A stretch of 64,000 nucleotides of DNA, from the NCBI RefSeq assembly GCF_000455205.1, contig NZ_AUWQ01000007.1, positions 20,014 through 84,013 on the forward strand, read 5' to 3'. Both the position numbers and the translations under genes were made by a program. Below are positions 3,366 to 41,751 of the stretch, piece after piece (position 1 is the first letter of the stretch; each line of letters begins with the position of its first letter). The DNA comes from Mycobacterium sp. UM_CSW. Its GTDB lineage: Bacteria > Actinomycetota > Actinomycetes > Mycobacteriales > Mycobacteriaceae. Below the pieces are notes generated by a model. It ran no database searches. It had not been told where the DNA came from and worked only from the letters and a program-made list of their open reading frames with translations.

Positions 3366-4631
3366 ATGACAGTGGCGACCGGGGTGTCCAGCAGCCGTGC
3401 CTACGACCCGATCGATCTGTCGTCGCGCGCGTTCTGGTCGACGACCGCGGCGGAGCGGGAGCGCTCCTTCGCGGTGCTGCGGGCCGAGCGCCCGGTGAGC
3501 TGGCATCCTCCCGTCGAGGATGCGCTTATGCCCGATCCGGCGGACCCGGGCTACTGGGCGGTCACCCGTCGCGCGGACATCGTCACGGTGAGCCGCAACA
3601 ACGAGGTGTTCCTGTCCGGCCGCGGCGTGATGTTCGAGAACATCCCCGTGGAGTTGCTCGAGGCGTCGCAGTCCTTCCTGGCGATGGACCCGCCGCGGCA
3701 CACCAAGCTGCGCAAGCTCGCGCACGCCGCGTTCACGCCCAGGCAGGTCCGCCGCATCGAGGAGTCGATCCAGGCGAACGCCAAGACCATCGTCGAAGAG
3801 CTGCGGGCCGCCGGCAGCGGTGCGGATTTCGTCGACCTGTGCGCCAAGGAGCTGCCCATCCGCACGCTGTCGGACATGGTCGGGATCCCGGAATCCGAGC
3901 GGCAGCGGATGGCGCACGCGACCGACGCCATGGTGTCGTGGGCCGACCCCGCCTACCTCGGCGGTCGGCACCCGATGGAGGTGTTGTTCGAGAACCAGAC
4001 GTATGTGCACCAGGTCGCCGGCGCGCTCGCCGCCGAGCGTCGCGAGCATCCCGGCGACGACTTGTTCAGCAGCCTGGTGAACGCCGAGGTGGACGGGGAC
4101 CGGCTGACGGACGCGGACGTGGCGGCGTTTTTCGTGTTGCTTTCGGTGGCCGGCAACGACACCACCCGGCAGACCATCAGTCACGCGATGAAGGCGCTCA
4201 CCGACTTTCCCGACCAGCGGGCATGGCTGTTGGAGGATTTCGACAACCGCATCGGCGCGGCCGTCGAGGAGTTCGTCCGATGGGCGACGCCCGTCATGAC
4301 CTTCCGCCGCACGGCGGCAACGGATGTCGAGCTGGGCGGTCAGAGCATCCGCGCGGGCGAGAAGGTGGTGATGTTCTATTCGTCCGGCAACTGGGACACC
4401 GACGCGTTCGATCATCCGGAGCGCTTCGATCTGAGCCGCAGTCCCAACCCCCACGTCGGCTTCGGCGGCGGCGGGTTGCACTTCTGCCTGGGCGCCCACG
4501 TGGCCCGGGCACAGTTGCGGGCCATCTTCGGTGAGTTGCTGCGCCAGTTGCCGGACATTCAGGCGGGCGAGCCGACCTACGTGGCGGGCAACTTCGTCCA
4601 CGCCGTCCGCAGCATGCCGTGCACGTTCTAA
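3366..4631 (+). CDS. Cytochrome P450
   Basis: A 421-residue soluble bacterial P450, near the usual 400-430. It is a heme monooxygenase that would take electrons from a ferredoxin and reductase; neither is encoded next door. The oxygen-binding helix I motif AGNDTTR is at residues 262-268, the ExxR pair is in the helix after EEFVRW, and the heme-binding loop GFGGGGLHFCLGAH holds the proximal thiolate Cys374. The overall pattern (SVAGNDTTR, PNPHVGFG, terminal SMPCTF) resembles mycobacterial CYP124/CYP125/CYP142-like enzymes that act on sterol side chains or branched lipids, but I cannot assign a CYP number or substrate. ATG at 3366 follows GGGAGGG. The 3' end overlaps the convergent sirtuin gene by 4 nt. 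Likely controlled by the divergent TetR protein. Confidence 0.88.
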   Translation: MTVATGVSSSRAYDPIDLSSRAFWSTTAAERERSFAVLRAERPVSWHPPVEDALMPDPADPGYWAVTRRADIVTVSRNNEVFLSGRGVMFENIPVELLEASQSFLAMDPPRHTKLRKLAHAAFTPRQVRRIEESIQANAKTIVEELRAAGSGADFVDLCAKELPIRTLSDMVGIPESERQRMAHATDAMVSWADPAYLGGRHPMEVLFENQTYVHQVAGALAAERREHPGDDLFSSLVNAEVDGDRLTDADVAAFFVLLSVAGNDTTRQTISHAMKALTDFPDQRAWLLEDFDNRIGAAVEEFVRWATPVMTFRRTAATDVELGGQSIRAGEKVVMFYSSGNWDTDAFDHPERFDLSRSPNPHVGFGGGGLHFCLGAHVARAQLRAIFGELLRQLPDIQAGEPTYVAGNFVHAVRSMPCTF

Positions 4632-5476
4632 CGCGCTGCGGTCGGGGACAACTCGTCAACTAGCAACGTCAGCAGCTCCGAGCAGCCGCCGTCGACCTTC
4701 ACGGTGGCCAGGTCGTCACCGCGGGTGCGTCCCCGATTGACGATCGCGATCGGGAGGCCGAGCGCCGCGGCGTGCCGCACGAACCGGTAGCCGGAGAACA
4801 CCGTCAGCGACGAGCCCGCGACCAGCAGCGCGTCCGCCTCGTCGATCAGCGAATATGACGTTGCCACAACGTCTTTGGGGACGCTCTCGCCGAAGTAGAC
4901 GATGTCGGGCTTGAGCATGCCGCCGCAGCGCGGGCAGTCGAGGTAGCGGAACGACGCGGTGTCGGCGACGACGGCGTCGGCGTCGGGAGCCACCGCCAGC
5001 CCGCCGACGGCCTCCGCGCGCTCGATAAATCCCGGGTTGAGCGCCTCGAGCTCTTCGGCGAGCGCGGCCCGGCTCATGCCGTACCGGCAGCTCAGGCATA
5101 CCACCCGCGCGTAGGTGCCGTGCAGGTTGATGACGCTTCGGCTGCCGGCCTTGGTGTGCAAAAGGTCGACGTTCTGGGTGATCACGCCGGTCACCACGGA
5201 GGCGCGCTCCAGCGCGGCCAGCGCCCGGTGCCCGGCGTTGGGCGCGGTGTCGTCCATGTGCCGCCACCCGACGTGGTTGCGCGCCCAGTACCGCTGCCGG
5301 AACACCGGATCCGAGGTGAACTGGCGGATGGTCATCGGGTTGCTCGGCGGCGAATCGGGGCCGCGATAGTCGGGAATGCCCGAGTCGGTGGAGATGCCGG
5401 CGCCGGTCAGGACCGCGACCCGCCGGCCCGCGAGCAGCGCGACGAGTTCGGGCGATTCCGCGCGGCTAAAGGTCAC
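4628..5476 (-). CDS. NAD-dependent protein deacylase, sirtuin (Sir2, class II-like)
   Basis: A 282-residue sirtuin that removes acyl groups from lysines while consuming NAD and releasing nicotinamide. Visible are the NAD-binding GAGISTDSGIPDYRG (25-39), TQNVD (100-104), catalytic His119 in LHGTY, two zinc-binding pairs C127-x2-C130 and C181-x2-C184, GSSL (221-224) and NRG (247-249). The roughly 50-residue insertion between the zinc pairs and the overall length suit SIRT4-like bacterial class II enzymes. A plausible partner is the acyl-CoA synthetase two genes upstream, whose class is regulated by lysine acylation; this is inference. It lies 21 nt downstream of the isochorismatase-fold gene on the same strand. 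Confidence 0.88.
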   Translation of the reverse strand: MTFSRAESPELVALLAGRRVAVLTGAGISTDSGIPDYRGPDSPPSNPMTIRQFTSDPVFRQRYWARNHVGWRHMDDTAPNAGHRALAALERASVVTGVITQNVDLLHTKAGSRSVINLHGTYARVVCLSCRYGMSRAALAEELEALNPGFIERAEAVGGLAVAPDADAVVADTASFRYLDCPRCGGMLKPDIVYFGESVPKDVVATSYSLIDEADALLVAGSSLTVFSGYRFVRHAAALGLPIAIVNRGRTRGDDLATVKVDGGCSELLTLLVDELSPTAAR

Positions 5477-5497
5477 CCGTTCGAGGGTACGGGCAAT

Positions 5498-6043
5498 TCA
5501 GGAGGTCTCGAGGCAGTCGGCGGCCGTAGTGAGCTCGGCGGACATGTTCTGCTGCATCATCTTCAGCGCCGCCTTGCCCAGATCGGCGTCGATGTGGGCA
5601 ACGGCATCGGTCGGGATCACGACGGGGAAGTGGCGCACGTAGGCGTCGAGCGCGGTGTACAGGATGCATTGCTCGGTGACCTGACCGGTGAGGATCAACC
5701 GCTTGGTCTCCAGGCGCCCGAGCAGATAGGCCAGCGCCGTCGCATAGAAGGCGCTGTGGCGGACCTTCGTCATCACCCGGCAATCGTCGCCCGGCACGAT
5801 CGGCTTGACCAGATCGGGCCGCGCGCCATCGAGCGCGGAGCCGACGATGTCGGAGAACTGGGCGGCGAAATTGCCGTAGTTGTCGTTGACGTAGATCAAG
5901 TCGACGCCGTCGGCGTTCCGCGCGCGGCGAATCAGGTCGGCAAGCGGGTCGATGATTTTTTCGACATTGGGTATCAGATCCTCAGCGTCGGGATGCTGAT
6001 ACGTGTTCATCATGTCGACGATTACGACAGCGGTATCGCTCAT
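5498..6043 (-). CDS. Isochorismatase-family cysteine hydrolase
   Basis: A 181-residue member of the isochorismatase/nicotinamidase fold. The catalytic triad is visible: Asp10 in VIVDMMN, Lys93 in TKVRHSAF and the nucleophile Cys126 in TEQCILYTALDAY, with the usual cis-peptide region before the Cys. The metal-binding DxHxxxH pattern of true nicotinamidases is absent (the equivalent stretch reads YVNDNYGNF), so PncA activity is unlikely. It probably hydrolyses another amide or vinyl ether. It shares a strand and a 21-nt spacing with the sirtuin, and is divergent from nadE with a 59-nt gap. Confidence 0.82.
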   Translation of the reverse strand: MSDTAVVIVDMMNTYQHPDAEDLIPNVEKIIDPLADLIRRARNADGVDLIYVNDNYGNFAAQFSDIVGSALDGARPDLVKPIVPGDDCRVMTKVRHSAFYATALAYLLGRLETKRLILTGQVTEQCILYTALDAYVRHFPVVIPTDAVAHIDADLGKAALKMMQQNMSAELTTAADCLETS

Positions 6044-6102
6044 GCCGTTGGGGATACCCGGCGGCGACGAGTTGACGCCCGTCGGGCGACAATGGGAGGG
6101 TC

Positions 6103-8145
6103 ATGGACTTTTACAACGCCTACCACCAGGGTTTTGTCCGCGTCGCCGCCTGCACACACCACACCGCGATCGGCGATCCGGCGGCCAACGCCGAGTCGGT
6201 GCTGCGGTTGGCGGCCCAATGCCACGACGACGCCGTCGCGGTGGCCGTCTTCCCGGAGCTGACGCTGTCCGGGTACTCCATCGAGGACATCGTCCTGCAA
6301 GACCTGCTGCTCGACGACGTCGAAGGCGCCGTCGCCGACGTCGTCGCGGCTTCGGCCGACCTGTTGCCGGTGTTGGTCGTGGGCGCCCCGCTGCGCTACC
6401 GGCATCGCATCTACAACACCGCGGTGGTGATCCACCGGGGCGTGGTGCTGGGCGTCGTGCCGAAGTCCTACCTGCCCACGTATCGAGAGTTCTACGAGCG
6501 CCGCCAGCTCGCGCCCGGCGACGACGAGCGCGGCAACATCCGCATCGGCGATATCGAGGCCCCGTTCGGTCCGGATCTGCTGTTCGCCGCGTCCGACCTG
6601 CCGGGCTTCGTGCTGCACGTCGAGATCTGTGAGGACATGTTCGTGCCGATCCCGCCCAGCGCGGAGGCGGCGCTGGCGGGGGCGACGGTGCTGGCCAACC
6701 TGTCCGGCAGCCCGATCACCATCGGGCGCGCCGAGGACCGTTGCCTGCTGGCGCGCTCGGCGTCGTCTCGCTGCCTGGCCGCCTACGTCTACGCCGCCGC
6801 GGGGGAGGGCGAGTCGACGACCGACCTGGCCTGGGACGGCCAGACCATGGTCTGGGAGAACGGCGTGCTGCTCGCCACGTCCGAGCGCTTCCCGAAGGGG
6901 GAGCGGCGCAGCGTCGCCGACGTCGACCTCGAGCTGCTTCGCGCGGAACGGCTGCGGATGGGCACCTTCGACGACAACCGGCGCCACCACCGGACGACGG
7001 CAGAGTCGTTCCGGCGCATCGAGTTCCGGCTCGACCCGCCCGCCGGCGACATCGGGCTGCGCCGCGAGATCGAGCGCTTCCCGTTCGTGCCCGCCGATCC
7101 GCAAAGGCTGGAACAGGATTGCTACGAGGCCTACAACATTCAGGTCTCCGGTCTCGAGCAGCGGCTGCGGGCGCTGGACTACCCCAAGGTGGTCATCGGG
7201 ATTTCCGGCGGGCTGGATTCGACGCACGCGCTGATCGTCGCCGCCCGTGCGATGGACCGCGAGGAACGGCCGCGCAGCGACATCCTGGCGTTCACGCTGC
7301 CCGGCTTCGCGACGGGAGATCGCACCAAGCGCAACGCGATCGAGCTGTGCCGCGCGCTGGGCGTCACCTTTTCGGAGATCGACATCACCGAGAGCGCGCG
7401 GCTCATGCTCAAGGAGATGGACCATCCGTTCGCTCGCGGCGAGAAGGTCTACGACGTCACGTTCGAGAACGTCCAGGCCGGCCTGCGCACCGATTACCTG
7501 TTCCGGCTGGCCAACCAGCGCGGCGGGATCGTGCTGGGCACCGGTGACCTCTCGGAGCTGGGGCTCGGCTGGTCGACATACGGCGTCGGCGACCAGATGT
7601 CGCACTACAACGTCAACGGCGGTGTCCCCAAGACGCTGATCCAGCACCTGATCCGCTGGGTCATTTCGTCGGGCCAGTTCGAATCGGACGTGTGCGAGGT
7701 GCTGCAGTCGGTGCTGGACACCGAGATCACGCCGGAGCTCGTCCCGAGCGGCGAGGAGGAAGAGCTGCAGAGCAGCGAGGCCAAGGTCGGACCTTTTGCC
7801 CTGCAGGACTTTTCACTCTTCCATGTGCTGCGCTTCGGGTTCCGGCCGTCGAAGATCGCCTTCCTGGCGTGGCACGCCTGGAGCGACCCGGAGCAGGGCA
7901 ACTGGCCACCGGGTTTCCCCGAGGACAAGCGACCGTCGTACTCGCTCAAGGAGATCCGGCACTGGCTGGGAGTGTTCGTGCAACGCTTCTACTCGTTCAG
8001 CCAGTTCAAACGCTCCGCGCTGCCCAACGGCCCCAAGGTGTCGCACGGCGGAGCGCTTTCGCCGCGCGGCGATTGGCGCGCCCCGTCGGACATGTCGGCG
8101 CGCATCTGGCTCGACGAGATCGAGCGCGAGGTCCCCGAAGACTAG
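6103..8145 (+). CDS. nadE: Glutamine-dependent NAD+ synthetase
   Basis: A 680-residue two-domain enzyme that amidates nicotinate adenine dinucleotide to NAD+, the last step of NAD synthesis; the M. tuberculosis enzyme is 679 residues. The N-terminal nitrilase-type glutaminase domain (about 1-330) has its triad: Glu52 in FPELTLSGY, Lys121 in [13 protein letters not shown] and Cys176 in EICEDMF. The C-terminal synthetase domain has the ATP-pyrophosphatase loop GISGGLDST near residue 368 and [12 protein letters not shown]. An ammonia tunnel between the sites is known for this family. ATG at 6103 follows GGGAGGG. This is the leftmost backbone gene (Rv2438c position); proB and obg do not flank it here. 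Confidence 0.95.
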
Positions 8146-8320: not shown

Positions 8321-10093
8321 CTATGGGTTGAGTGGGTCTGTCGTGCCGGTGAAGTCGGCGACGATGGAGGTGGCGGCGTGCTCGATAACTCGGAATTCGA
8401 ACCCGGTCGCCAGCGTCACCAGCGCCGTATCGGCGGCGACGGGAGCGCCCAGCGCGTAGACGAGCCCGCCGACAGGATCACCATCGAACGCTTGCTTGAC
8501 GCCGCTTAAGAAGAGGTTGATGTCGTAGGACGGCATGGAGATCGTAAGCGCATTCGCGATATCGGCCGTCGGAAGCAGAGTCGCGTAGGCGTCGGAGGCT
8601 GCGCCCGAGACCGCGGTGGCCAAATAGCTGTTCGTGCCCTGAAGGGCACCGATAACGCTGTCCGGTGAGGCGAGGACGGACATGACCCCGGCGAGCGCTC
8701 CGGGTCCGCCGGTTACGCCAGCTCCCACTGTGGACGCGAGGCTGGGCAGTGACAAGGTTGAGAACGACGCACCTGCCGAGGCGGCCTCTGCGCCGATGTC
8801 GCTGATGAACGAGTTCAATCCTTGCTGGGTTCCGGTGCCAAGGGCCTGGAGCACGGTGACGGGGCTGACTGGTGGAATGACCCCGAATCCGGTTGGGACG
8901 TTGGGCGCGTCGGGCGACCAGCCCTGGGTAGTGCTGCCGTAGCCCAAGTCGACGATGACTCTCAAGTCGGGTTGGATTAGGTCGGCGACAGGATGTCCTA
9001 TCACCGGAATTGCCCGCACGGGGTCCAACAGCGGCAGGTTCGCCGTGGGATAGATGTAATAGTCGGTCAGCGTGGGTCCCGCCGTGTTCGTCAGCTGGAC
9101 TGCGGTGGTGGGGTCCATGTAGGGATATTGGCCGTGCAACTCGATGATGCCGAAGAAAGCGTTGACATCTGACACGATGTCGAGGGGGTATCGCGGGAAG
9201 TCGGCGAAACCGTCGTACTCGATCGTGAAGATCTTGGTAGGGAACGAATTGTCCGGAGTCGCCAGGCCGAACGTCAAACCCAGACTAGGCAGGCTCAATC
9301 CCGGGAAACGAGTGAGCAAGCCGCCGTTGGGATTGCTCACATCACCGACGAGTGTGAAGTTCAGCGTCACCCCCGGCGGCAGATTGCTCCCGCCCGGGGT
9401 GTTCGTGGGGTTGAGCGCCATCATTTCCTGGGACACGATGTTCGCGCTCTGCGAGTAGCCGAAGACGTTGATCTGGGTGGCCCCGGAGGCGATTGTCGAC
9501 TGGATTGCGTTGTTGAGGATTGAGACGCCGCGCGCAGCCGACACGTCGAAGGTCAAATCCTTGATGCCGGTGAGCGGATACAGCCCCTCGGGCGTGGCGA
9601 TGCCGACATTGGTGCCGCTCATGCCCGGGTTCCACAATTGGTCGAGATATATCTGCGGAAGCAACGTTACGTATTCCGGGATCTGCCACGGTATCGGGTA
9701 GCCGCTGGCACCCAAGATCAAGTTGGTGATGCCGGCGGCGGGGGTCGCCGTACCCCCGCCAAGAAGCGACGGGAACGCCGAGGTGATCTCGTTCAGCGCG
9801 GCCGACACGGCGTTCGCCACCTCTGTCTCGGCGTAGGCAAGTCCGGAACCGCGCAGCAGCTGGACGAATTGACCTTGGAATGACGACGCCTGCGCGACTG
9901 CTGCGTGATACTGCGCGGCGTACGTGTTGAACACTGTCGCAGTGGCCGCTGACACTTCGTCGCCAGCCGCTGCGATCAGCGAGCTCGTTGGACGAGCCGC
10001 CGCCGAACTGGCCTCTCCGATCACCGAGCGAATCCGCGAAACCTCTGTCGCCGCCGCGGCCATTGCATCCGGTTGTGTGACCAAATACGTCAT
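8321..10093 (-). CDS. PE-family protein with PE-PPE serine-hydrolase domain
   Basis: A 590-residue secreted PE protein. Residues 1-95 are the helical PE domain, starting MTYLVTQPDAM with a PE-like hairpin (here the usual Pro-Glu is degenerate), and end with the ESX secretion motif Y-x3-E at Tyr87-Glu91. Residues about 120-370 are a PE-PPE domain, an alpha/beta-hydrolase/cutinase-like fold, with nucleophile Ser214 in GYSQS. Esterase or acyltransferase activity on lipids is known for the family. The C-terminal 200 residues are Ala/Gly/Ser rich. It probably pairs with a PPE partner encoded elsewhere and leaves through ESX-5. An AAGGATCG stretch precedes the ATG. It is isolated between a degenerate region and the synteny break after nadE. 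Confidence 0.85.
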   Translation of the reverse strand: MTYLVTQPDAMAAAATEVSRIRSVIGEASSAAARPTSSLIAAAGDEVSAATATVFNTYAAQYHAAVAQASSFQGQFVQLLRGSGLAYAETEVANAVSAALNEITSAFPSLLGGGTATPAAGITNLILGASGYPIPWQIPEYVTLLPQIYLDQLWNPGMSGTNVGIATPEGLYPLTGIKDLTFDVSAARGVSILNNAIQSTIASGATQINVFGYSQSANIVSQEMMALNPTNTPGGSNLPPGVTLNFTLVGDVSNPNGGLLTRFPGLSLPSLGLTFGLATPDNSFPTKIFTIEYDGFADFPRYPLDIVSDVNAFFGIIELHGQYPYMDPTTAVQLTNTAGPTLTDYYIYPTANLPLLDPVRAIPVIGHPVADLIQPDLRVIVDLGYGSTTQGWSPDAPNVPTGFGVIPPVSPVTVLQALGTGTQQGLNSFISDIGAEAASAGASFSTLSLPSLASTVGAGVTGGPGALAGVMSVLASPDSVIGALQGTNSYLATAVSGAASDAYATLLPTADIANALTISMPSYDINLFLSGVKQAFDGDPVGGLVYALGAPVAADTALVTLATGFEFRVIEHAATSIVADFTGTTDPLNP

Positions 10094-11126: not shown

Positions 11127-11672
11127 TTACCGTTCGTACGTGCCAGTCAGCGTCCCGCGGGCCAGCACGTGTCCAGCCATCGAGACCAGGAGAGCCTTGG
11201 CCGTGGTGACGGTGTCGGGGATGCACTCGTCGGTCGCGAACACATGGAACCGGTAGCGGTGGGGTCCGTGACCGGGAATCGGGCGAGGCCCCGCGTAGCC
11301 CCGGTGACCCAGATCGGCCCGGACAAACCGTATTCCGTCGGTCCCCGGAAGCAATTCGCCGGCGGCGACGCCGCCCAGCGTTGGCTCGAGCACTGCAACT
11401 GTGTGCAGTGGGGGCCGCGGCAGCGGAACGTCGATGTCGTCCATGACGAACACCAGCTGCCGGGCGTCTGGCGGCACCCCCTCCCAGCGCAGCGGCGGCG
11501 AGGCGTTGTCGCCGACGCCGTTGCCCGCACTGGCCGGCGGCATCGGTCCGCCGTCGTCGAACGCCGGGCTGGTGACGGTGATCGACGCAGGCGCGTCAAA
11601 AGCTTTGCCGGCCAACGGACTTCGGTGTGCGCCCGCACGCGCCCCGCGGAGCAGCCGTCCCAGCAGCGCCAT
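11127..11672 (-). CDS. PEBP-family protein (YbhB/YbcL type)
   Basis: A 181-residue phosphatidylethanolamine-binding-protein family member. The core signatures are ASPPLRWEGVPPDARQLVFV with MDDIDVP shortly after, then GYAGPRPIPGHGPHRYRFHVFA, the bacterial YbhB/YbcL equivalent of the DPDxP and GxHRY anion-pocket motifs. No signal peptide is apparent. The ATG shares one base with the TGA of the upstream hydro-lyase small-subunit gene (TGATG at 11670-11674), so it is the last gene of the operon. Its role there is unknown; in other bacteria such proteins bind small anionic ligands. Confidence 0.8.
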   Translation of the reverse strand: MALLGRLLRGARAGAHRSPLAGKAFDAPASITVTSPAFDDGGPMPPASAGNGVGDNASPPLRWEGVPPDARQLVFVMDDIDVPLPRPPLHTVAVLEPTLGGVAAGELLPGTDGIRFVRADLGHRGYAGPRPIPGHGPHRYRFHVFATDECIPDTVTTAKALLVSMAGHVLARGTLTGTYER

Positions 11673-12232
11673 CAGGCGCCGCTGCCGGCGCCGCGCATGG
11701 CGACAGTGCTCGACCGCAGGACGTCGCCCAGCTCGGCCGGCAGATAGCCCTGCTCCGCCAACCGTGGTAGCACGCCGCCACTTTCGATGATCTCGAGGAT
11801 CAGCTCGGGCAGCTGGGGGACGGTGCCTGAGTCTCCGGTGGTGTCGTTTCGCCAGGTGCCGGCTGTCAGGTCGAAGGATCCCGTGTCGCCCTCGCGAAAC
11901 ACTTCGGTGGCGTTGGGCACGGTCATCGCCGGCAGCCCGGCGTTAACGGCGTTGCGGAAGAACAACGAGTTGAATTCTTCGGCGACGAGACCTGCCACCC
12001 CGAGCTCGGTAAACAGGGCCGCGACCGGCCGCGACGACCCGAGCCCGAAGTTCTTGCCCGCCACCACGACGTCGCCCGGCGAAACCTGGTCGGTCCAGCA
12101 GGGGCGCACCTCATGGAAGACGTGCTTGGCCGCCTCGTGCGGATCCATCTTCATGGCGAAGGCCGGATACATGGCGTCGGTGTTGAGGTTGTCGCCGAAC
12201 ACCCAAAGCTTGCCGCTAAAGGCGATCGTCAT
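11672..12232 (-). CDS. Aconitase/LeuD-like hydro-lyase, small subunit
   Basis: A 186-residue swivelling-domain subunit of a two-chain aconitase-superfamily hydro-lyase (LeuD / dimethylmalate dehydratase small-subunit type). It begins [23 protein letters not shown], the usual small-subunit start, and carries the substrate-binding [10 protein letters not shown] loop and [18 protein letters not shown]. The ATG at 12232 is chosen because it gives an ATGA overlap with the large-subunit stop and because homology begins there, although the frame is open further upstream. It is slightly longer than archaeal-type LeuD (about 165). With the large subunit it should form one active site. Confidence 0.85.
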
Positions 12233-13476
12233 GCGGTCACGCTCCTCGGGTCGGTGATGTATCCGGTGACGGCAGAGGCGGCGACGGTCGCGGGTGCCGC
12301 CATGAAGATCTCCGCCTCGGTGCTGCCCATGCGGCCGGTGAAATTGCGAGTGCTCGACGTGATGCACACCTCGCCGGGGCCCACCACGCCCATGTGGTAG
12401 CCGAAACACGCGCCGCACGTCGAGTTGGTGATCACCGCGCCGGCGTCCGCCAGGTCCTGCAAGTAACCCAATCGCATCGCTTCGCGGTACACCGACTGCG
12501 AGGCGGGCGTCACCAGCAGGCGCACCCCCGGAGCGACGGTCTTGCCGCGCAACACTTCCGCCGCGATCTCGAGGTCCTCGAGTTGGCCATTCGCGCACGA
12601 CCCGATGAACGCCTGGTCAACCTTCTGCCTGTCCAGCTGTGACACGGGCACACCGTTGCGGCTGACGGTGCCCGGGCGCGCGACATAGGGCTCCAGCACC
12701 GAAAGGTCGATACGCCGGACGTCGTGGTAGTTCGCGTCGGGATCCGGTGCCGCAGTGTCGTATCCGGTGACACCGGCCTCGTCGAGGAAGCGCGCCAGCA
12801 CCGCGTCGAGTTCGAACGTGCTGAAGTCAGCCGACACCTCGGCGCCCTGGGTGGCGATGGTGCGCCGATCGTGCATCGGGATGCCGGCCAAACCAGGGCC
12901 GCCGAATTCCAGGTTCAGGTTGGGCACATCGCCGTATTCGTTGGCGATGTGAAGGAAGATGTCCTTGCCGCTCACCGTGTTCGGTTTCATGCCGTCGAGC
13001 TCGTAGCGGATCGTCGGCGCAACCTGGAACCACGTCGTACCGGTACACATGATCGAATACACCTCGGCCGGCCCCAGGCCGCGCGCCGCGGTGTTATAGG
13101 CGCCGGCGGCGCACGTGTGAGAGTCGGTGCAGGCCAGGATCTCTCCCGGGCGCGCCAGCCCGTTCTCGGCGATCACCTGATGGCAAATGCCGTGCCGACC
13201 CACGTCATAAAAGCGCTCGATGCCGAAGTCGGCAACGAACTTTCGGGCGTGCCCGCCGCCGGTGGCGTCCTTGATCGTCGGCGCCGGCACGGCGTGGTCC
13301 ATGACGACCGCGAGCTTGTCGGGGTCGTGGATCCGGTTGGGCGGTATCCACAGAGTGGCGAACTGCAGATCGATCAGGACGGTCATGTCGACGTCGACCA
13401 CGACGGTGTCACCCGGCGACACCGAGGCCAGGCCGGCCTTGCGGGCGAAGATCTTTTCGATGATGGTCATGCCCAT
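12229..13476 (-). CDS. Aconitase/LeuC-like hydro-lyase, large subunit (3-isopropylmalate or 2,3-dimethylmalate dehydratase type)
   Basis: A 415-residue [4Fe-4S] subunit. The three cluster ligands are visible: Cys294 in GSCANG, and Cys354 and Cys357 in STCGACFG. His61 in MDHAVPAP and the [18 protein letters not shown] loop (116-133) are also as expected. The length matches the archaeal-type LeuC/homoaconitase/DmdA branch (about 420), not the 470-residue bacterial LeuC of leucine synthesis, so this is probably a separate catabolic enzyme that interconverts an alkyl-malate with an alkyl-maleate or aconitate. ATG at 13476 has GAGG 7 nt upstream; an ATG at 13470 would give a 4-nt overlap with the lyase stop. 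Confidence 0.85.
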
Positions 13477-14354
13477 GAGCGGTCCTCAGTTTGTGCGTAC
13501 TTGTCGTCGAGAGCCAGCCACTCCGCCATGCCGATCAGGTTGAAGAAGTCCCCGGGGGTGCTGCCGAGGTGGTTTGCGACGTCGGTGCCGTTGAGCTCGC
13601 AAAGACTCTGCAGCATGCCGAATGTCGCCCGCATCAGGAGATTCCCCGGATGAATGGCGATCGCGTAACCCAACTCCTGCAGCCGAGACGCGGACTGCAG
13701 CGGCGTCATGCCGCCGAGGACGAGATTGATCAGGAGGGGAGCGTCGACTTCGGCTGCGATGCGAGCGATTTCGCCGGAATCCTGTGGCGCCTCGACAAAG
13801 ATGATGTCGGCGCCCGCGTCCGCGTACCGGTTGGCGCGCTCGATCGCGGCGTCCAGGCCGAGCGGGGCACGGGCATCGGTGCGAGCGACCACCAGCAGGC
13901 CGTCATCGGTGCGGGCGTCGAGCGCGGCTGCAAGCGTCCGCTCGAATACGGCGGCATCGACGACCTGCTTGTCCGGCAGGTGACCGCATCGCTTTGGAAA
14001 CACCTGGTCCTCCAACTGGATCGCTGCCACGCCCGCCGCGTCGTAGGACCGGACTGTGCGCACCACATTCATGGGTCCGCCGTACCCCGTGTCGGCGTCG
14101 GCGATCAGCGGAACGTCGCCCAGCGCATCGGTGATCATCCGTGCCCGGTCGGCCATTTCGGTGGCGGTTACCAGTCCGATGTCCGGGAGCCCGAATCCCG
14201 ACGCCGCCACGCCGGCGCCGCTCATGTATGCGGCGACGTGCCCCGTTCGTTTGGTCAGCTGCGCCGAGATGCCGTCGAAAACGCCTGGCGCAATAATGAG
14301 TTCGCGCTTTGCCAGCAGCTCTCTCAGCCGCCGGCGGGCCGGTGTGGTGGCCAT
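13467..14354 (-). CDS. Isocitrate lyase/PEP mutase superfamily C-C lyase (methylisocitrate or 2,3-dimethylmalate lyase-like)
   Basis: A 295-residue lyase, the size of PrpB. It has the barrel signature SGAGVAASGFGLPDIGL (45-61), Mg-binding ADADTGYGG (Asp86, Asp88), EDQ (115-117) and the catalytic loop KRCGH (121-125) with the acid-base Cys123. The KRCGH loop marks true isocitrate-type lyases rather than PEP mutases or oxaloacetate decarboxylases. The expected reaction is retro-aldol cleavage of a 2-alkyl-malate or methylisocitrate-like acid to pyruvate or glyoxylate plus a second acid. It is followed by the LeuC-like gene with overlap and preceded by the MmgE/PrpD gene with a 10-nt gap. Confidence 0.87.
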   Translation of the reverse strand: MATTPARRRLRELLAKRELIIAPGVFDGISAQLTKRTGHVAAYMSGAGVAASGFGLPDIGLVTATEMADRARMITDALGDVPLIADADTGYGGPMNVVRTVRSYDAAGVAAIQLEDQVFPKRCGHLPDKQVVDAAVFERTLAAALDARTDDGLLVVARTDARAPLGLDAAIERANRYADAGADIIFVEAPQDSGEIARIAAEVDAPLLINLVLGGMTPLQSASRLQELGYAIAIHPGNLLMRATFGMLQSLCELNGTDVANHLGSTPGDFFNLIGMAEWLALDDKYAQTEDRSWA

Positions 14355-14364
14355 ATCCGCCCTT

Positions 14365-15795
14365 TCAGTCCAGTGCCCCCGCTACGGGAGCGGCGAGAAG
14401 ATCGATCAGGTCGCCGATGTCGTCGAGATCGTCGAGATTCAGCACGGCCCGCTCGATCGCGTCCGCCCGTGCGCGGTTCGTGACGCGGTCGGCGAGCGCA
14501 TCGAACTTCGTCACGATCTCGTCGTTGGTGACGGAATCATTGGGCGCGCCGTGCGGCAGGGCGACCCGTGCGCGGTGCTCCGCGCCGTCGCGGGTGGTCA
14601 CCGCGACGTCGGTGCGGAACTTCTCGGTGATGTCCGCGCGGGCCAACGACTCGTCGAGGTGAACTGTGGTCGCCGCGATCAGCGACCAGACGTCGTCGGA
14701 ATCGAGGCGGCCGGGGGTGAATTGCTCGGGCAACACGTTGCCGTCGAGCAGGGCCGCGGCGGTCGCGTACCCGATGTTCATCTGGGCGCCGATCGGGGTG
14801 AGCGGCCGCTCGGGCGTCCACCAACCGTGCTTGTAGATAGTCTCGCCGACCGTGATGTCCACCTTCGAAATATCCTGGGGTGCAACCGAATTGCGCAGTC
14901 GCCTGGCCGCGTCGATCGCTCCGTGCAGGCCGCCCATCGCGGCATACGACTTGACCATGATGTTGGTGGTCTCCCAGCGCTGGCCGAGTTGTCCGGTCAG
15001 CAGCGAGGCATCGGGATCGTGGCCCTCGCCGAAAACGCTGAGGAAGCCGCCGTATTCGCGCTCGAACACCCGCTTGATTCCGGTATAGCCAGCCGCCGCG
15101 AGGCCCGCGGCATAGAAGCCGTTGCGCGCCGCCAGGCCGTGGTGCATGCGCTTGCTCATGGCCTCGTACTGCGCGGCCATCAGCCCCGCCGATTGGGTGC
15201 CGGCCAGGCCGAGGGCGTCCTCGAGTTGCGCGGGCGACAGCCCGCGCAGCTTGCCGGAGGCCATGGCCGCCGGGTGGGTGCCGAAGACCGAGCCGGAGTG
15301 CCAGCCGCGATCGAGCATCTGGGTGCCGTGCAGCGTGTAGCCGACGCGGGGGCCGACTTCGAAGCCGGCGATCGCCGCCAGCAGCACGTCGGCGCCTCTC
15401 GTGCCGACCCCGCGCGTCGCCGCCGTCGACAGCAGCGCGGGAATGAGCAGCGAGCAGCTGTGCAGCGGGGCCAGGGGATGGAAGTCATCGAGCTCGAAGC
15501 CCTGGATGAAGGTGCCGTTGAGGACCGCGGCCGCCGGCGCGCCAGCGGTGCGCCCAGTGCCGATGATGACCGCATCGCCGGCGCCCTCGAGGCCGAGCAC
15601 GGCGTCGGTGGCGACGCGAGACCAGGGCAACTGGGCCCCCACCAGCGCGCAACCGAGGCCGTCGAGCAGTAGATGTTTGGCCCGCTCGACGACGGTCGGG
15701 GGAACATCGTCGACGGTGAGGCCGGCGACCCAGGTGGCCAGTCGGCCCGTCGGCCCCGCCGGATCGGTGGCGGGTTGCCGGTGCACCGCGGTCAT
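14365..15795 (-). CDS. MmgE/PrpD-family protein (2-methylcitrate dehydratase / aconitate decarboxylase-like)
   Basis: A 476-residue MmgE/PrpD protein, typical length. The family includes 2-methylcitrate dehydratase PrpD, cis-aconitate decarboxylase and iminodisuccinate epimerase, all cofactor-free and acting on di- or tricarboxylates. Visible family features are the N-terminal helical domain with LLDGLGCALVGA, the GFELDDFHPLAPLHSCS segment with the conserved Asp-Asp and His residues, WHSGSVFGTHPAA, and KSYAAMGGLHGAIDAA. ATG at 15795 follows AAGGAAGG. It is the first gene of the operon and sits 23 nt from the palindrome at 15818, so the GntR regulator should control it. Which reaction it performs cannot be read from sequence. 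Confidence 0.85.
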   Translation of the reverse strand: MTAVHRQPATDPAGPTGRLATWVAGLTVDDVPPTVVERAKHLLLDGLGCALVGAQLPWSRVATDAVLGLEGAGDAVIIGTGRTAGAPAAAVLNGTFIQGFELDDFHPLAPLHSCSLLIPALLSTAATRGVGTRGADVLLAAIAGFEVGPRVGYTLHGTQMLDRGWHSGSVFGTHPAAMASGKLRGLSPAQLEDALGLAGTQSAGLMAAQYEAMSKRMHHGLAARNGFYAAGLAAAGYTGIKRVFEREYGGFLSVFGEGHDPDASLLTGQLGQRWETTNIMVKSYAAMGGLHGAIDAARRLRNSVAPQDISKVDITVGETIYKHGWWTPERPLTPIGAQMNIGYATAAALLDGNVLPEQFTPGRLDSDDVWSLIAATTVHLDESLARADITEKFRTDVAVTTRDGAEHRARVALPHGAPNDSVTNDEIVTKFDALADRVTNRARADAIERAVLNLDDLDDIGDLIDLLAAPVAGALD

Positions 15796-15817
15796 CGAGC
15801 CTTCCTTCGAGTGAGCA

Positions 15818-15839
15818 GTTGTTATATACATATAACAAC
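15818..15839. promoter_or_regulatory. GntR-type operator in the catabolic-operon divergent promoter
   Basis: An inverted repeat with perfect 10-nt arms GTTGTTATAT and ATATAACAAC separated by AC. It lies 23 nt before the MmgE/PrpD start and 27 nt before the GntR start. AT-rich GT-x-x-TA/TA-x-x-AC symmetry is common for GntR/HutC-family sites. It stands out strongly in this GC-rich sequence, so a single dimer probably controls both directions. Recognition by the adjacent regulator is inferred. Confidence 0.8.
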
Positions 15840-15865
15840 CTACGAGCCGGCGCAAGGGAGGCGGT

Positions 15866-16690
15866 GTGGAAGCATTGACGCCCGTGCAGCGGAGCGGCGG
15901 CAGGACGGGACCGGTGTCCAGTGACGCCGGGGTGCCGTTGCATCGGCAGCTGTTCCTGGTGTTGCACGACGAGATCGATCGCGGCGCCATCGTCCCGGGC
16001 GAGGCGTTGCCCACCGAGCAGACACTGTGCGAGCAGTTCGGGGTTTCCCGGATCACGGTGCGCCGCGCGCTGGCGGATCTGGCCGAGCAGGGATATATCG
16101 AGCGCAGGCACGGCGTCGGTTCGTTCGTCAGGGAGCACAGTCCGTCGGACCTGCCGGCGGGTGGCTCGTACATGGAGGGGTTGCGCCAGACCCAATTCGA
16201 AACCGAGGTCGACGTGGTCGAACTCGAAACCCGGCGCCCGCCCCGCGCCATAGCCGATGCGCTATCGGCGTCCGGCGAGCTGCTGCAGATCGTGCGAGTG
16301 CGCAGGCAACGCCGGACCGGCGAGCCGTTGATGGTCAGCGATGCGTGGCTGCCGTCGGAACTGGCCGGCGCGTTGTCCGAGTCCGCGCTGCGACGAGCGC
16401 CGCTGTATCAGCTGCTGGCGGACGCCGGCATCGTCGTGGACCGCATCCGGCACGAAATCACCGCCGAGATCGCGGGCCCGCGCAACGCGCATCTACTGGA
16501 CACGCCGATCGGCGCCGCGCTGCTGCGCGTCAACCGCCTGGCGTTCGTAGGCGATGCGCCGCATCACCATCTGTCGGTTCTGCTGTCGCCCAGCCGCAGC
16601 CGACTGCTGCTCACCCAGACGGCTGACGAATTGGAAACGGGCGACGGCTTGACCATTGCCCACGACGTGCCGCGCCACGCTAACGAATGA
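15866..16690 (+). CDS. GntR-family regulator, HutC/UTRA subfamily
   Basis: A 274-residue regulator. Residues about 22-95 form the winged helix: LHRQLFLVLHDEIDRGAI, then LPTEQTLCEQFGVSRITVRR and LAEQGYIERRHGVGSFV. Residues about 110-265 are a UTRA effector domain (MVSDAWLPSELA near the pocket). GTG at 15866 follows GGGAGG. It is divergent from the MmgE/PrpD operon with a palindromic operator between them. The expected role is repression relieved by a pathway acid or its CoA ester. Its last 11 nt overlap the convergent methyltransferase gene. Confidence 0.88.
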   Translation: MEALTPVQRSGGRTGPVSSDAGVPLHRQLFLVLHDEIDRGAIVPGEALPTEQTLCEQFGVSRITVRRALADLAEQGYIERRHGVGSFVREHSPSDLPAGGSYMEGLRQTQFETEVDVVELETRRPPRAIADALSASGELLQIVRVRRQRRTGEPLMVSDAWLPSELAGALSESALRRAPLYQLLADAGIVVDRIRHEITAEIAGPRNAHLLDTPIGAALLRVNRLAFVGDAPHHHLSVLLSPSRSRLLLTQTADELETGDGLTIAHDVPRHANE

Positions 16691-17354
16691 GGCCGACCCC
16701 GGGGACGAACCGCCCGACACTGGCCGCGTAGGCGCGGTAGGCGTCGCCGTGCGTCCGCAGCAGGTATGGTTCCTCGACGCGCCGGACCTGCAGCTCGATC
16801 GTGGCGACGAGCAGGATGAAGCCCGCGACTGCAACGACGTTCGGCGTCACCAGGACGATGCCGATCCCGAAGAGGAACATCGCGCCGTAGATGGGATTGC
16901 GGATCCGGGCGAACGTGCCGGTGTGCACCAGCGTGGTGGTCTCCGTGGTGTCAACCCCGATCCGCCACGAATCGCCCATCTCGAGCTGCGCGTACACCGT
17001 CGCGGCGATGCCCGCTGTGGCCAGCACGATGCCGACGGTTTGAATGCAGACCTCGTTGAGCACCCGCAGCGGGCCAACCACCTTGGCCTCCTGCAAGATT
17101 GGGGCGCTCACCGCCACCGCCAGCGCCGCCACGAAGCCGACGCCGGCGACGCGTTCCACCGGGCCGCCGGTTCTGATGCCGCGGAAACCGGTGGAGCCGG
17201 TGCGCCGATACTGCAGCCAGCTGCGCCAGCCGAATCCCAGCACCCCGAAGATCGCGAAGAGCACCAGGGCCATGTCGGCAGCGGCTGTCGCCGGCATGCG
17301 AATTCCCATGACCGCCGTCATCGCCAGCGAGGGTACATCACGGCTCTCGGTCAC
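16680..17354 (-). CDS. Isoprenylcysteine carboxyl methyltransferase (ICMT)-family membrane methyltransferase
   Basis: A 224-residue polytopic membrane protein with about five hydrophobic segments. The ICMT/PEMT signatures sit in the C-terminal half: FARIRNPIY and RRVEEPYLLRTHGDAYRAY, which bind S-adenosylmethionine in this family. The bacterial substrate is unknown; protein prenylation is not expected here. It starts with GTG whose TGA-containing overlap (GTGA, 17351-17354) couples it to rbsK. Its place next to rbsK corresponds to Rv2437 in M. tuberculosis. It overlaps the GntR gene 3' end by 11 nt. Confidence 0.78.
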   Translation of the reverse strand: MTESRDVPSLAMTAVMGIRMPATAAADMALVLFAIFGVLGFGWRSWLQYRRTGSTGFRGIRTGGPVERVAGVGFVAALAVAVSAPILQEAKVVGPLRVLNEVCIQTVGIVLATAGIAATVYAQLEMGDSWRIGVDTTETTTLVHTGTFARIRNPIYGAMFLFGIGIVLVTPNVVAVAGFILLVATIELQVRRVEEPYLLRTHGDAYRAYAASVGRFVPGVGLIR

Positions 17355-18247
17355 CGAAACACTTCCCGCAGAGCCGCGTCGATCGCGTCGGCGCGCGGGG
17401 CGCAGTCACCGGCGCCGGGCACCAGGGTGGCCAGCGCACCCGCGGCGCAGGCGCGGCGTAGCGCGGTCAGCCGCTCGGCCCGAGAGGCGTGGTTGGCGCA
17501 GGGGTCGCGCGGCCAGTTGGCGGCCATCACGCCGGCGAACACGTCGCCGGCGCCGGCGGTATCCAATGGCTTGACCGCAGGTGCGGGCACGTCGAATTCA
17601 CCGTCGGCTCCGCTGTAGCGTGCGCCGCGCGCGCCGAGGGTGACCACCAAATGGGTTGACCGCCAGGGCCATCTTTCGGCTTCGGCTTCGTTGGCGATGA
17701 CCACGTCGGCGGCGGCCGCCAGCTCGGCCAAGCCGTCGTCGAGTCGGCCGACGGGCGAGGCGTTGACGATGACGGCCGCCCCCGCCGAGCGGGCTTGGTG
17801 CGCCGCCGCCACCGCCGTCGGCACCGGAATCTCCAACTGCGTCAACAGCACATCGCAGCCGGCGATCACGTCGCGCGCTTGGGCGCCTGCCAGCGTCAGC
17901 CGCCCGTTGGCGCCGGGCGCCACCACGATGGTGTTTTCGGCGTTGGCATCGACCACGATGGCCGCCGTACCGCTTGGCCCCGGCACGGTGACCATCCCGT
18001 CGAGCCCAACGCCGTTGGCCCGCAGATGGGCCCGCAACCGTGCCGCGGCGGCGTCGTCGCCGAGCGCGCCGACGAACTGCACGTGCGCGCCCGCGCGCGC
18101 CGCCGCCACGGCCTGGTTGGCGCCCTTGCCGCCGGGGGCCGAGGTCAGCGACGACGCCAACACCGTCTCGCCCGGCCGCGGCAGGGCGTCGACGTCGAAC
18201 GTCAGGTCCATGTTCACGCTGCCGACCACGCAGACCCGCGCCATCAT
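17351..18247 (-). CDS. rbsK: Ribokinase, PfkB family
   Basis: A 298-residue sugar kinase that phosphorylates ribose, or a related sugar or nucleoside, at the 5 position. PfkB signatures are SVNMDLTFDVDALPRPGET near the N-terminus, the GGKGANQAVAAARAG glycine loop, and DTAGAGDVFAG with the catalytic Asp. No ribose transporter lies nearby. Two adjacent ATGs (18247, 18244) are equally possible starts; an ATG-less upstream extension to 18280 is not homologous. It is divergent from the cyclase gene across 155 nt and coupled to the downstream methyltransferase. Confidence 0.85.
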   Translation of the reverse strand: MMARVCVVGSVNMDLTFDVDALPRPGETVLASSLTSAPGGKGANQAVAAARAGAHVQFVGALGDDAAAARLRAHLRANGVGLDGMVTVPGPSGTAAIVVDANAENTIVVAPGANGRLTLAGAQARDVIAGCDVLLTQLEIPVPTAVAAAHQARSAGAAVIVNASPVGRLDDGLAELAAAADVVIANEAEAERWPWRSTHLVVTLGARGARYSGADGEFDVPAPAVKPLDTAGAGDVFAGVMAANWPRDPCANHASRAERLTALRRACAAGALATLVPGAGDCAPRADAIDAALREVFR

Positions 18248-18349
18248 GCCGACGTTAGTCGGGCCGAATTGGGCACACACAATGGCGGTGGCCGGCCCAT
18301 TGACGCTGATCCTTTTTCGGCAATCCCCAATATCGTGATGTCCGCGCGC

Positions 18350-41298: not shown

Positions 41299-41751
41299 TA
41301 TGTTCTCCCCGAGTTTCACGGCGGCACTTCGGCCCCGCCGGTAGCGAGACCCAAGATAGCCCCCTCCGGCAGCCACCGTCCCCGACATGCACATATCCGC
41401 GCCCAACTGCTCATGGGACGGCGGGCGCCGGTCATCGAACGCACCGTGCAACGGGCCCCGCCGGGCCTTGCCGACAGCCGCAGATCATGACATCTGCGCG
41501 TCGCGGCGCCGGGAACCGGCCGGCGCTTGTAATACTGGTCCGCGTAGGCGATTCGGCTGCGGCAACCCGGGCTGGATGTGTAGATTCGCGATGACAGTCG
41601 CTGTAAGGCAGTACCCGGGGGGGTTCTGCCAGCTCTGGTCCTGGGTGTGTGCAGTGAGCGGCCTAGGACGTGGTTCGAAGTAGCCACGGCTCCGGTGCCG
41701 CAAGGGCCCGCGGGCATCAAATTTTCCGGTCGAAACGGGGAGGACAACCGC
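41299..41751. promoter_or_regulatory. Divergent promoter region between papA and pks
   Basis: 453 nt with no supported gene. It must hold the papA- and pks-directed promoters; I could not fix -10/-35 boxes. A run of seven G (41617-41623) lies about 130 nt before the pks start, and GGGGAGG (41738-41744 region) is the pks ribosome-binding site. The pks frame is open back to 41647 but that extension lacks homology. Confidence 0.45.

Follow-up and report, generated by a model that had tools for sequence, protein, structure and literature searches.

What is broken down by a compact operon that joins an MmgE/PrpD-family protein, a C-C lyase, the two subunits of a LeuC/LeuD-like hydro-lyase and a PEBP/YbhB-family protein (PEBP)? 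The operon occupies positions 11127-15795 of a 64,000-nucleotide stretch of contig NZ_AUWQ01000007.1 (the window) from the 6.4-Mb mycobacterial genome of Mycobacterium sp. UM_CSW. It is transcribed from the minus strand in the order MmgE, lyase, LeuC-like, LeuD-like and PEBP, with a 10-nt gap at the first junction and overlaps of 10, 4 and 1 nt at the next three. An original prediction, made from the sequence of the window, had described five tightly packed genes of these families; the open reading frames were confirmed at that place and strand, and all five products exceed the Pfam cut-offs (Table 1). The locus is more than a chance arrangement, because the gene order recurs across genera and comparisons with three relatives give ratios of nonsynonymous to synonymous substitution rates (dN/dS) of 0.09-0.29 for the five genes and the neighboring gntR gene. 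The five-gene set is found in many mycobacteria and soil actinobacteria and appears to encode an undescribed breakdown route for a small branched acid. Tentatively, and with a confidence just short of even, we read it as a catabolic operon under local control whose substrate would be an acid of the alkyl- or 2,3-dialkylmaleate type, with the MmgE-family enzyme as the point of entry.

The MmgE-family protein groups with the cis-aconitate decarboxylase/iminodisuccinate epimerase branch instead of the methylcitrate-type dehydratases suggested for it at first. Cis-aconitate decarboxylase (ACOD1/IRG1) and iminodisuccinate epimerase are its nearest relatives in both fold and sequence, and the two are tied in the fold comparison, with cis-aconitate decarboxylase nearest; yet the sequence identity is only 22-26%. 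An NCBIfam search with the protein returned no family at E ≤ 0.001 and thus no match to the PrpD models TIGR02330 and NF042438. Residues D103, D104, H112, H166, K215 and K282 are invariant in 32 aligned MmgE sequences. In the alignment to ACOD1, the counterparts of H103, H159 and K207 are kept, and His277 is replaced with methionine (ACOD1 numbering).

The kinship with ACOD1 bears on a C5 scheme, in which the MmgE protein would isomerize itaconate to citraconate (or convert cis-aconitate to itaconate), LeuC-LeuD would form citramalate and the lyase would release pyruvate and acetate. The nearest folds of the MmgE protein are itaconate-forming cis-aconitate decarboxylases, the best PDB match of the LeuC-like protein is an isopropylmalate/citramalate isomerase, and petal-death-type lyases accept 2-methylmalate. 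Such an operon for C5 acids is nevertheless rather unlikely, given that ACOD1 His277 is lost, that the PEBP and the metallo-β-lactamase (MBL)-fold hydrolase found in its place in relatives are left unexplained, and that the literature links of PEBPs, in the available text of the sources, concern maleic anhydrides.

The second gene encodes a C-C lyase, as originally predicted, with a KRCGH motif and a PF13714 match. Its N-L-V-L-G-G and FVEAP motifs are of the dimethylmalate-lyase/petal-death-protein kind, and the N-x-T-E-F-G motif is absent. At the position where methylisocitrate lyase has threonine, the valine of dimethylmalate lyase is found in 75 of the 76 lyases of named relatives, a count made on the named scan alone (a larger set of 93 lyases includes some loci twice). 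The motif argues for an alkylmalate substrate without a third carboxylate and would disfavor the alkyl-citrates that the original prediction had listed among the possible substrates.

The third and fourth genes encode a DmdAB/LeuCD-like hydro-lyase of the archaeal-type LeuC branch, an earlier assignment borne out by scores over the cut-offs of NF001614 (431.2 bits; cut-off, 385) and, for the small subunit, of the LeuD/DmdB model TIGR02087 (134.4 bits; cut-off, 108.95). The TIGR02086 cut-off was missed (390.7 bits; cut-off, 410). The isopropylmalate isomerase of leucine biosynthesis was rejected as an identity because the LeuC/LeuD equivalog cut-offs were missed (162.5 versus 560 for TIGR00170, 358 versus 611 for TIGR02083 and 22.9 versus 116 for TIGR00171). 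Residues Cys294, Cys354 and Cys357 of the LeuC-like protein are invariant in six aligned sequences, and its best PDB match is the isopropylmalate/citramalate isomerase named above.

The methylcitrate cycle (PrpB, PrpC and PrpD/AcnD) has three enzyme superfamilies in common with the operon. In a methylcitrate-like route, the MmgE protein would dehydrate a (methyl- or alkyl-)citrate that is imported or made elsewhere, LeuC-LeuD would rehydrate the aconitate, and the lyase would yield succinate and a 2-oxoacid. The three reaction types are the same, the lyase and E. coli PrpB share 41% identity across 230 residues, and fungal alkylcitrate dehydratases found with PEBPs are 2-methylcitrate-dehydratase-like in the available text. 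The route is unlikely on several counts. The lyase scores 258.9 bits with the PrpB equivalog TIGR02317 (cut-off, 354.4) and has lost the T-E-F motif, and the MmgE protein matches no PrpD model and lies nearer to cis-aconitate decarboxylase and iminodisuccinate epimerase. PrpC, as originally noted, is missing from the window and, within the draft assembly, from the genome: PF00285 citrate synthases occur at two genome loci, both below the TIGR01800 cut-off, and a gap in the assembly is possible. A citrate synthase over that cut-off occurs in 19 of 60 genus genomes, and that of the window is not among them. The genome has a separate true PrpD on contig C81 (898 bits with NF042438; cut-off, 950; the reading frame begins at model position 44), and the relative G007 has another lyase (42%) adjoining a PrpC-class gene, presumably its PrpB. 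An ordinary methylcitrate cycle was rejected on these grounds (equivalog cut-offs missed for PrpB and PrpD, a changed lyase motif, no PrpC and a true PrpD elsewhere), in agreement with the original prediction. On C81 (G000:C81; L151, 5997-11851), the canonical prpD is followed, after ~410 bp, by a DUF3556 gene and a methionine synthase gene, with no prpC between.

The alkylmaleate reading orders the five products as follows. The MmgE protein, a putative proton-transfer enzyme, would form a cis-alkylmaleate, either through an allylic shift of an alkylitaconate or through decarboxylation of an alkyl-aconitate. The PEBP, or the MBL-fold hydrolase in other lineages, would hold this product as the free acid or open its anhydride or lactone. 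LeuC-LeuD would hydrate the (di)alkylmaleate to a 2,3-alkylmalate, and the lyase would cleave the alkylmalate to a 2-oxoacid (pyruvate if the methyl group is on C2) and a carboxylic acid. A like hydration is carried out by DmdAB in the 2,3-dimethylmalate branch of nicotinate fermentation in Eubacterium barkeri, which comprises Mii, DmdA, DmdB and dimethylmalate lyase. The operon shares with this branch a LeuC/LeuD-type two-subunit hydratase and a lyase of the isocitrate lyase (ICL)/PEPM type, and the related gene sets of S. cattleyicolor and Variovorax also have a PrpF-type isomerase. It differs in its MmgE-family protein in the place of Mii, its added PEBP or MBL-fold hydrolase and its actinobacterial hosts. 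The genes at 11127-18280, the region to which the PrpF search was confined, include no 3-methylitaconate isomerase of that family, and inspection by eye of the recurrent neighbors at 44 loci showed no nicotinate genes. The operon would work like the dimethylmalate branch and is not filed as a member of it, because the gene set lacks the defining isomerase and its activities are predictions.

The gene order was found again in Mycobacterium, Nocardia, Amycolatopsis, Streptomyces and others, as a check proposed with the original prediction had asked. In the genus, 38 of 198 genomes contain an MmgE match at E ≤ 1e-30. Form A (77-100% identity) has near-full matches in 18 genomes, with nadE in 7 of the 8 stretches fetched, and form B (61-63% identity) stands at other sites in 8 genomes and as a second copy in G163, with an IclR-type gene adjoining 8 of 9. 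Of 396 phylum genomes, 3 have a LeuC match at E ≤ 1e-130, each of them from the same genus; of 251 family genomes, 6 have one. A named-genome scan with a LeuC alignment confirmed 124 places, of which the best 80 were kept; their hosts include Mycobacterium, Nocardia, Antrihabitans, Amycolatopsis, Kutzneria, Saccharothrix, Streptomyces, Streptacidiphilus and Catenulispora. Among these, 64 loci have enough flank for counting (16 were dropped for short flanks), and in 55 of the 64 an MmgE gene lies no more than 4.5 kb away, on the upstream side of the lyase except in L147. Most names of neighboring genes were assigned by eye from sequence, with Pfam checks of one example each for IclR, Lrp/AsnC, GntR-FCD, TctA, TctB, TctC, SDR, DUF3556, methionine synthase, MBL, MFS, luciferase-like and Amdase proteins, and of two AtuA proteins.

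Lyase-LeuCD modules with other partners are also found. They stand with a PrpF-type isomerase in Variovorax and with PrpF and a divergent MmgE gene in S. cattleyicolor. In Arthrobacter the partners are LeuB and an ABC transporter, in Skermanella and the mycobacterial genome G033 they are TctABC, and elsewhere they are MFS transporters. At the G033 locus (L049), MmgE faces leuC-leuD-lyase and is itself followed by TctC-TctB-TctA genes. On a Rhodococcus plasmid, the partner is an Amdase-family protein (PF17645), a family that includes maleate isomerases. A substituted maleate would be the node shared by these variant isomerases and the hydratase. On a Caballeronia plasmid, MmgE (55%) follows lyase-LeuC-LeuD, and the PEBP (41%) lies past an MFS gene on the other strand; the Caballeronia LeuCD exceeds the TIGR00170 and TIGR00171 cut-offs and is a different hydro-lyase, of the bacterial leucine-type subfamily.

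Several arrangements among the relatives are recorded here as such. Tandem MmgE-family genes precede the lyase in L118 (5392-8000) and in L114 (5342-8100; L043 is the same site), the copies being 61-63% and 31-32% identical to the window protein, and genomes G033 and G041 contain eight MmgE-family matches each (E ≤ 1e-30). In Pseudonocardia kujensis (L147), an ABC transporter-lyase-LeuCD-MmgE set lies between two AtuA-family proteins (PF07287; 12521-13900 and 21-1373). In Rhodococcus sp. HM1 (L146, 6032-8102), genes for a short-chain dehydrogenase and a luciferase-type monooxygenase lie directly upstream of lyase-LeuCD, with no MmgE seen in the stretch. The leuC match falls into two pieces in L053 (9802-11045, G055) and in L145 (7800-9040, M. 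talmoniae), as does the leuD match in L082 (10245 on, M. sherrisii), through a frame break or an assembly error.

The PEBP was listed in the original prediction without a role; its presence stands, and it was found to go with MmgE and to be swapped for an MBL-fold hydrolase. It scores 81 bits with PF01161 (cut-off, 24), and of the residues of its charged pocket (two Asp, two His and one Arg), Asp79, Asp81 and His138 are invariant in 23 sequences and His90 nearly so, and the arginine after His138 varies. Of the 55 loci with MmgE, 34 have a PEBP in the slot that follows leuD, 14 an MBL-fold hydrolase (PF00753 in the one example tested), 7 neither and none both; the nine loci without MmgE hold no PEBP and one MBL. 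The association between MmgE and PEBP has a Fisher p value of 0.0005 with relatedness ignored. Among the dropped loci, L071, L078, L089 and L094 show a PEBP on contigs that end before MmgE, and L090 and L111 show both PEBP and MmgE. In Streptacidiphilus L140, the MBL gene is in the slot and a PEBP gene lies 5.4 kb upstream of leuC. On a LeuC tree from a short search, in which 23 of 61 inner branches are weak, the slot label requires 14 changes and the PEBP 7, at least 3 of the latter forced by starred branches. The exchange of PEBP and MBL would therefore have arisen repeatedly, or the genes would have moved by transfer.

A chance neighborhood of the PEBP is unlikely given its sites beside nadE in Mycobacterium, beside IclR genes, beside Lrp genes in Nocardia, and in Caballeronia. 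The broader idea that PEBPs in general mark MmgE fails in a survey of Actinomycetota genomes. PEBP matches at E ≤ 1e-12 occur in 81 of 396 genomes, and five have a match under 1e-30; in four of these (G000, G058, G061 and G011) the gene is beside MmgE, and in G275 it is not. Such a PEBP occurs in 3 of 72,556 plasmid records. Two Caballeronia plasmids have MmgE close to it (SBC1, from coordinates, and SBC2, L060), and no MmgE lies within 9 kb of the PEBP on the S. mirabilis plasmid.

Published systems place PEBPs near related chemistry. Fungal maleidride clusters contain an alkylcitrate synthase, an alkylcitrate dehydratase, a PEBP and a dimerizing cyclase, with the 2-methylcitrate-dehydratase-like dehydratase and the PEBP among the core genes, and adding the PEBP genes raised the dimer yield more than 20-fold in vivo (PMC9890510, PMC8851701). 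The role of the PEBP is termed obscure there, and PEBP-less clusters exist (PMC9890510, PMC8851701). Those clusters differ from the operon in being fungal and biosynthetic, with a polyketide synthase and a citrate-synthase-like enzyme, and their available text mentions no LeuCD or lyase. FT/PEBP/YbhB proteins have been argued to be unrecognized small-molecule enzymes that are rarely found in conserved operons, with ttnL/ttmL, from the portion of the tautomycetin/tautomycin clusters devoted to the dialkylmaleic anhydride, as the exception in the available text (PMC8793217). These Streptomyces gene sets, like the operon, include a bacterial PEBP/YbhB homologue; they are biosynthetic, and the comparison covers the PEBP (PMC8793217). 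The PEBP of the operon might act enzymatically, opening or otherwise converting a dialkylmaleic anhydride (or a related lactone) that its MmgE partner forms, with the slot MBL-fold hydrolase as its functional equivalent, a proposal to which we give a low probability. If true, a bacterial PEBP would have a metabolic reaction in common with the biosynthesis of maleidrides and tautomycin, set within a new pathway of alkylmaleate degradation.

A number of observations weigh against the alkylmaleate reading. Every substrate, every reaction and the mode of regulation are predicted from the genes. An ordinary itaconate-forming activity of the MmgE protein is doubtful, because ACOD1 His277 aligns with methionine. 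The role of the Thr/Val position in the lyase is presumably that in the structures of ICL and methylisocitrate lyase (MICL), and the motif agreement with dimethylmalate lyase (DMML) is accompanied by a near tie in fold scores that does not distinguish the lyase types (oxaloacetate acetylhydrolase, OAH, 35.3; petal death protein, PDP, 34.7; DMML, 34.6; MICL, 33.9). The alignment of the LeuD loop is uncertain, since that of relatives is one residue longer, and within the 64-kb window no transporter gene was noticed next to the operon. In seven complete loci the slot lacks both PEBP and MBL, and an independent-pairs test of MmgE versus PEBP on the LeuC tree gave 1 to 3 concordant pairs and 0 opposed, which is not significant. 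MmgE matches were found at 0 of 41 PEBP loci (L180-L220; 26 with 1.5-kb flanks and 15 with wider ones, some overlapping) from 27 other Actinomycetota genomes. The maleidride PEBPs gave no appreciable gain in cell-free extracts in the available text (PMC9890510, PMC8851701), and the FT/PEBP/YbhB review, as far as its available text goes, leans to sugar or nucleoside substrates (PMC8793217).

The losses in relatives belong with these points. In three form-B genomes, MmgE stands beside the PEBP and the middle genes are gone, with a leuD remnant in G011 and no lyase at 1e-40, and in L039 and L041 the MmgE gene is adjoined by neither PEBP nor lyase-LeuCD. Conversely, gntR-lyase-LeuCD is kept with no MmgE genome-wide at 1e-25 in M. 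sherrisii, M. angelicum, M. gastri, M. attenuatum, M. simiae, M. persicum and M. innocens, and the PEBP is also absent in the four with a long enough flank (M. sherrisii, M. angelicum, M. simiae and M. persicum). The two halves are separable and need not serve one pathway in every host, because each survives alone in some genomes. This persistence of each half is what would be expected if {MmgE, PEBP} and {lyase, LeuC, LeuD} were unrelated sub-modules acting on different compounds. That arrangement is improbable, since the order is kept across many genera and beside four regulator families, and since the Caballeronia MmgE and PEBP again lie near a lyase and a different LeuCD.

The alkylmaleate reading includes local regulation, for which the gene list of the original prediction, correct in its five genes, had overlooked two elements: a divergent GntR-family gene and a palindrome next to it. 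The palindrome at 15819-15838 is the sole window match at ≤2 mismatches (0 in 100 shuffles) and a single genome site at ≤1 mismatch. The exact pattern is present in 30 of the 33 loci with a divergent gntR facing MmgE or the lyase, including all seven MmgE-less loci; of the three exceptions, L105 has a change in one arm, L097 carries the pattern in compressed form, and L059 of Paraburkholderia lacks it. A looser score gives 31 of 33 and takes in the unrelated L059. The arms are invariant and the central four bases vary across loci, a pattern as expected of an operator. The 20-bp palindrome is likely the operator of the divergent GntR gene, whose product would repress the operon through this site until a substrate or intermediate binds. 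A promoter and terminator scan gave no signal above shuffled sequences. In relatives, the operon order is kept beside GntR-UTRA, IclR, Lrp/AsnC and GntR-FCD regulators. Such catabolic-type regulators and the transporters of relatives speak against an anabolic set that would supply lipid or secondary metabolism with a newly made or recycled alkylmalate or branched acid, and inspection by eye of the recurrent neighbors at the 44 loci brought out no conspicuous ligase or citrate-synthase-like gene. Although the reactions are reversible in principle and dialkylmaleic anhydrides occur in natural products according to the available text, an anabolic role is highly improbable.

In agreement with the original prediction, a literature search whose reach excluded most subscription papers found no described pathway with this gene set, no paper describing the operon and none linking MmgE with a bacterial PEBP. 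Genes annotated as 'MmgE/PrpD', 'isocitrate lyase/PEP mutase family' and 'LeuC/LeuD' in soil actinobacteria and non-tuberculous mycobacteria can be marked as one uncharacterized pathway. The operon represents a widespread bacterial PEBP link that may concern chemistry related to dialkylmaleic anhydride synthesis, and it supplies a short list of substrates and partners for testing PEBP catalysis. The MBL-fold replacement, the hosts without MmgE and PEBP, and the hosts with only those two provide natural controls for such tests.

Table 1. Features of the operon and its regulatory region (window coordinates)
Feature	Position	Strand	Remarks
MmgE/PrpD-family protein	14365-15795	-	476 aa; PF03972 and PF19305 over Pfam cut-off
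ICL/PEP-mutase superfamily C-C lyase	13467-14354	-	295 aa; PF13714 over cut-off; KRCGH
LeuC-like large subunit, [4Fe-4S] hydro-lyase	12229-13476	-	415 aa; PF00330 over cut-off
LeuD/DmdB-like small subunit	11672-12232	-	186 aa; PF00694 over cut-off
PEBP/YbhB-family protein	11127-11672	-	181 aa; PF01161 over cut-off
GntR-family regulator with UTRA domain (HutC type)	15866-16690	+	divergent from operon
Palindrome TTGTTATA-N4-TATAACAA	15819-15838		between gntR and MmgE gene; candidate operator

Genes for a sirtuin, an isochorismatase-domain hydrolase and an NAD synthetase (nadE, called by sequence) adjoin the operon at 4628-8145. A functional tie to these neighbors, which would parallel nicotinate metabolism, was rejected as coincidence, since nadE is found in 0 of 9 fetched form-B stretches. 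The window also encodes a PE family protein with a PE-PPE domain (8321-10093) and a type I polyketide synthase of 3762 aa (41647-52935) with two sets of ketosynthase, acyltransferase, ketoreductase and carrier domains.

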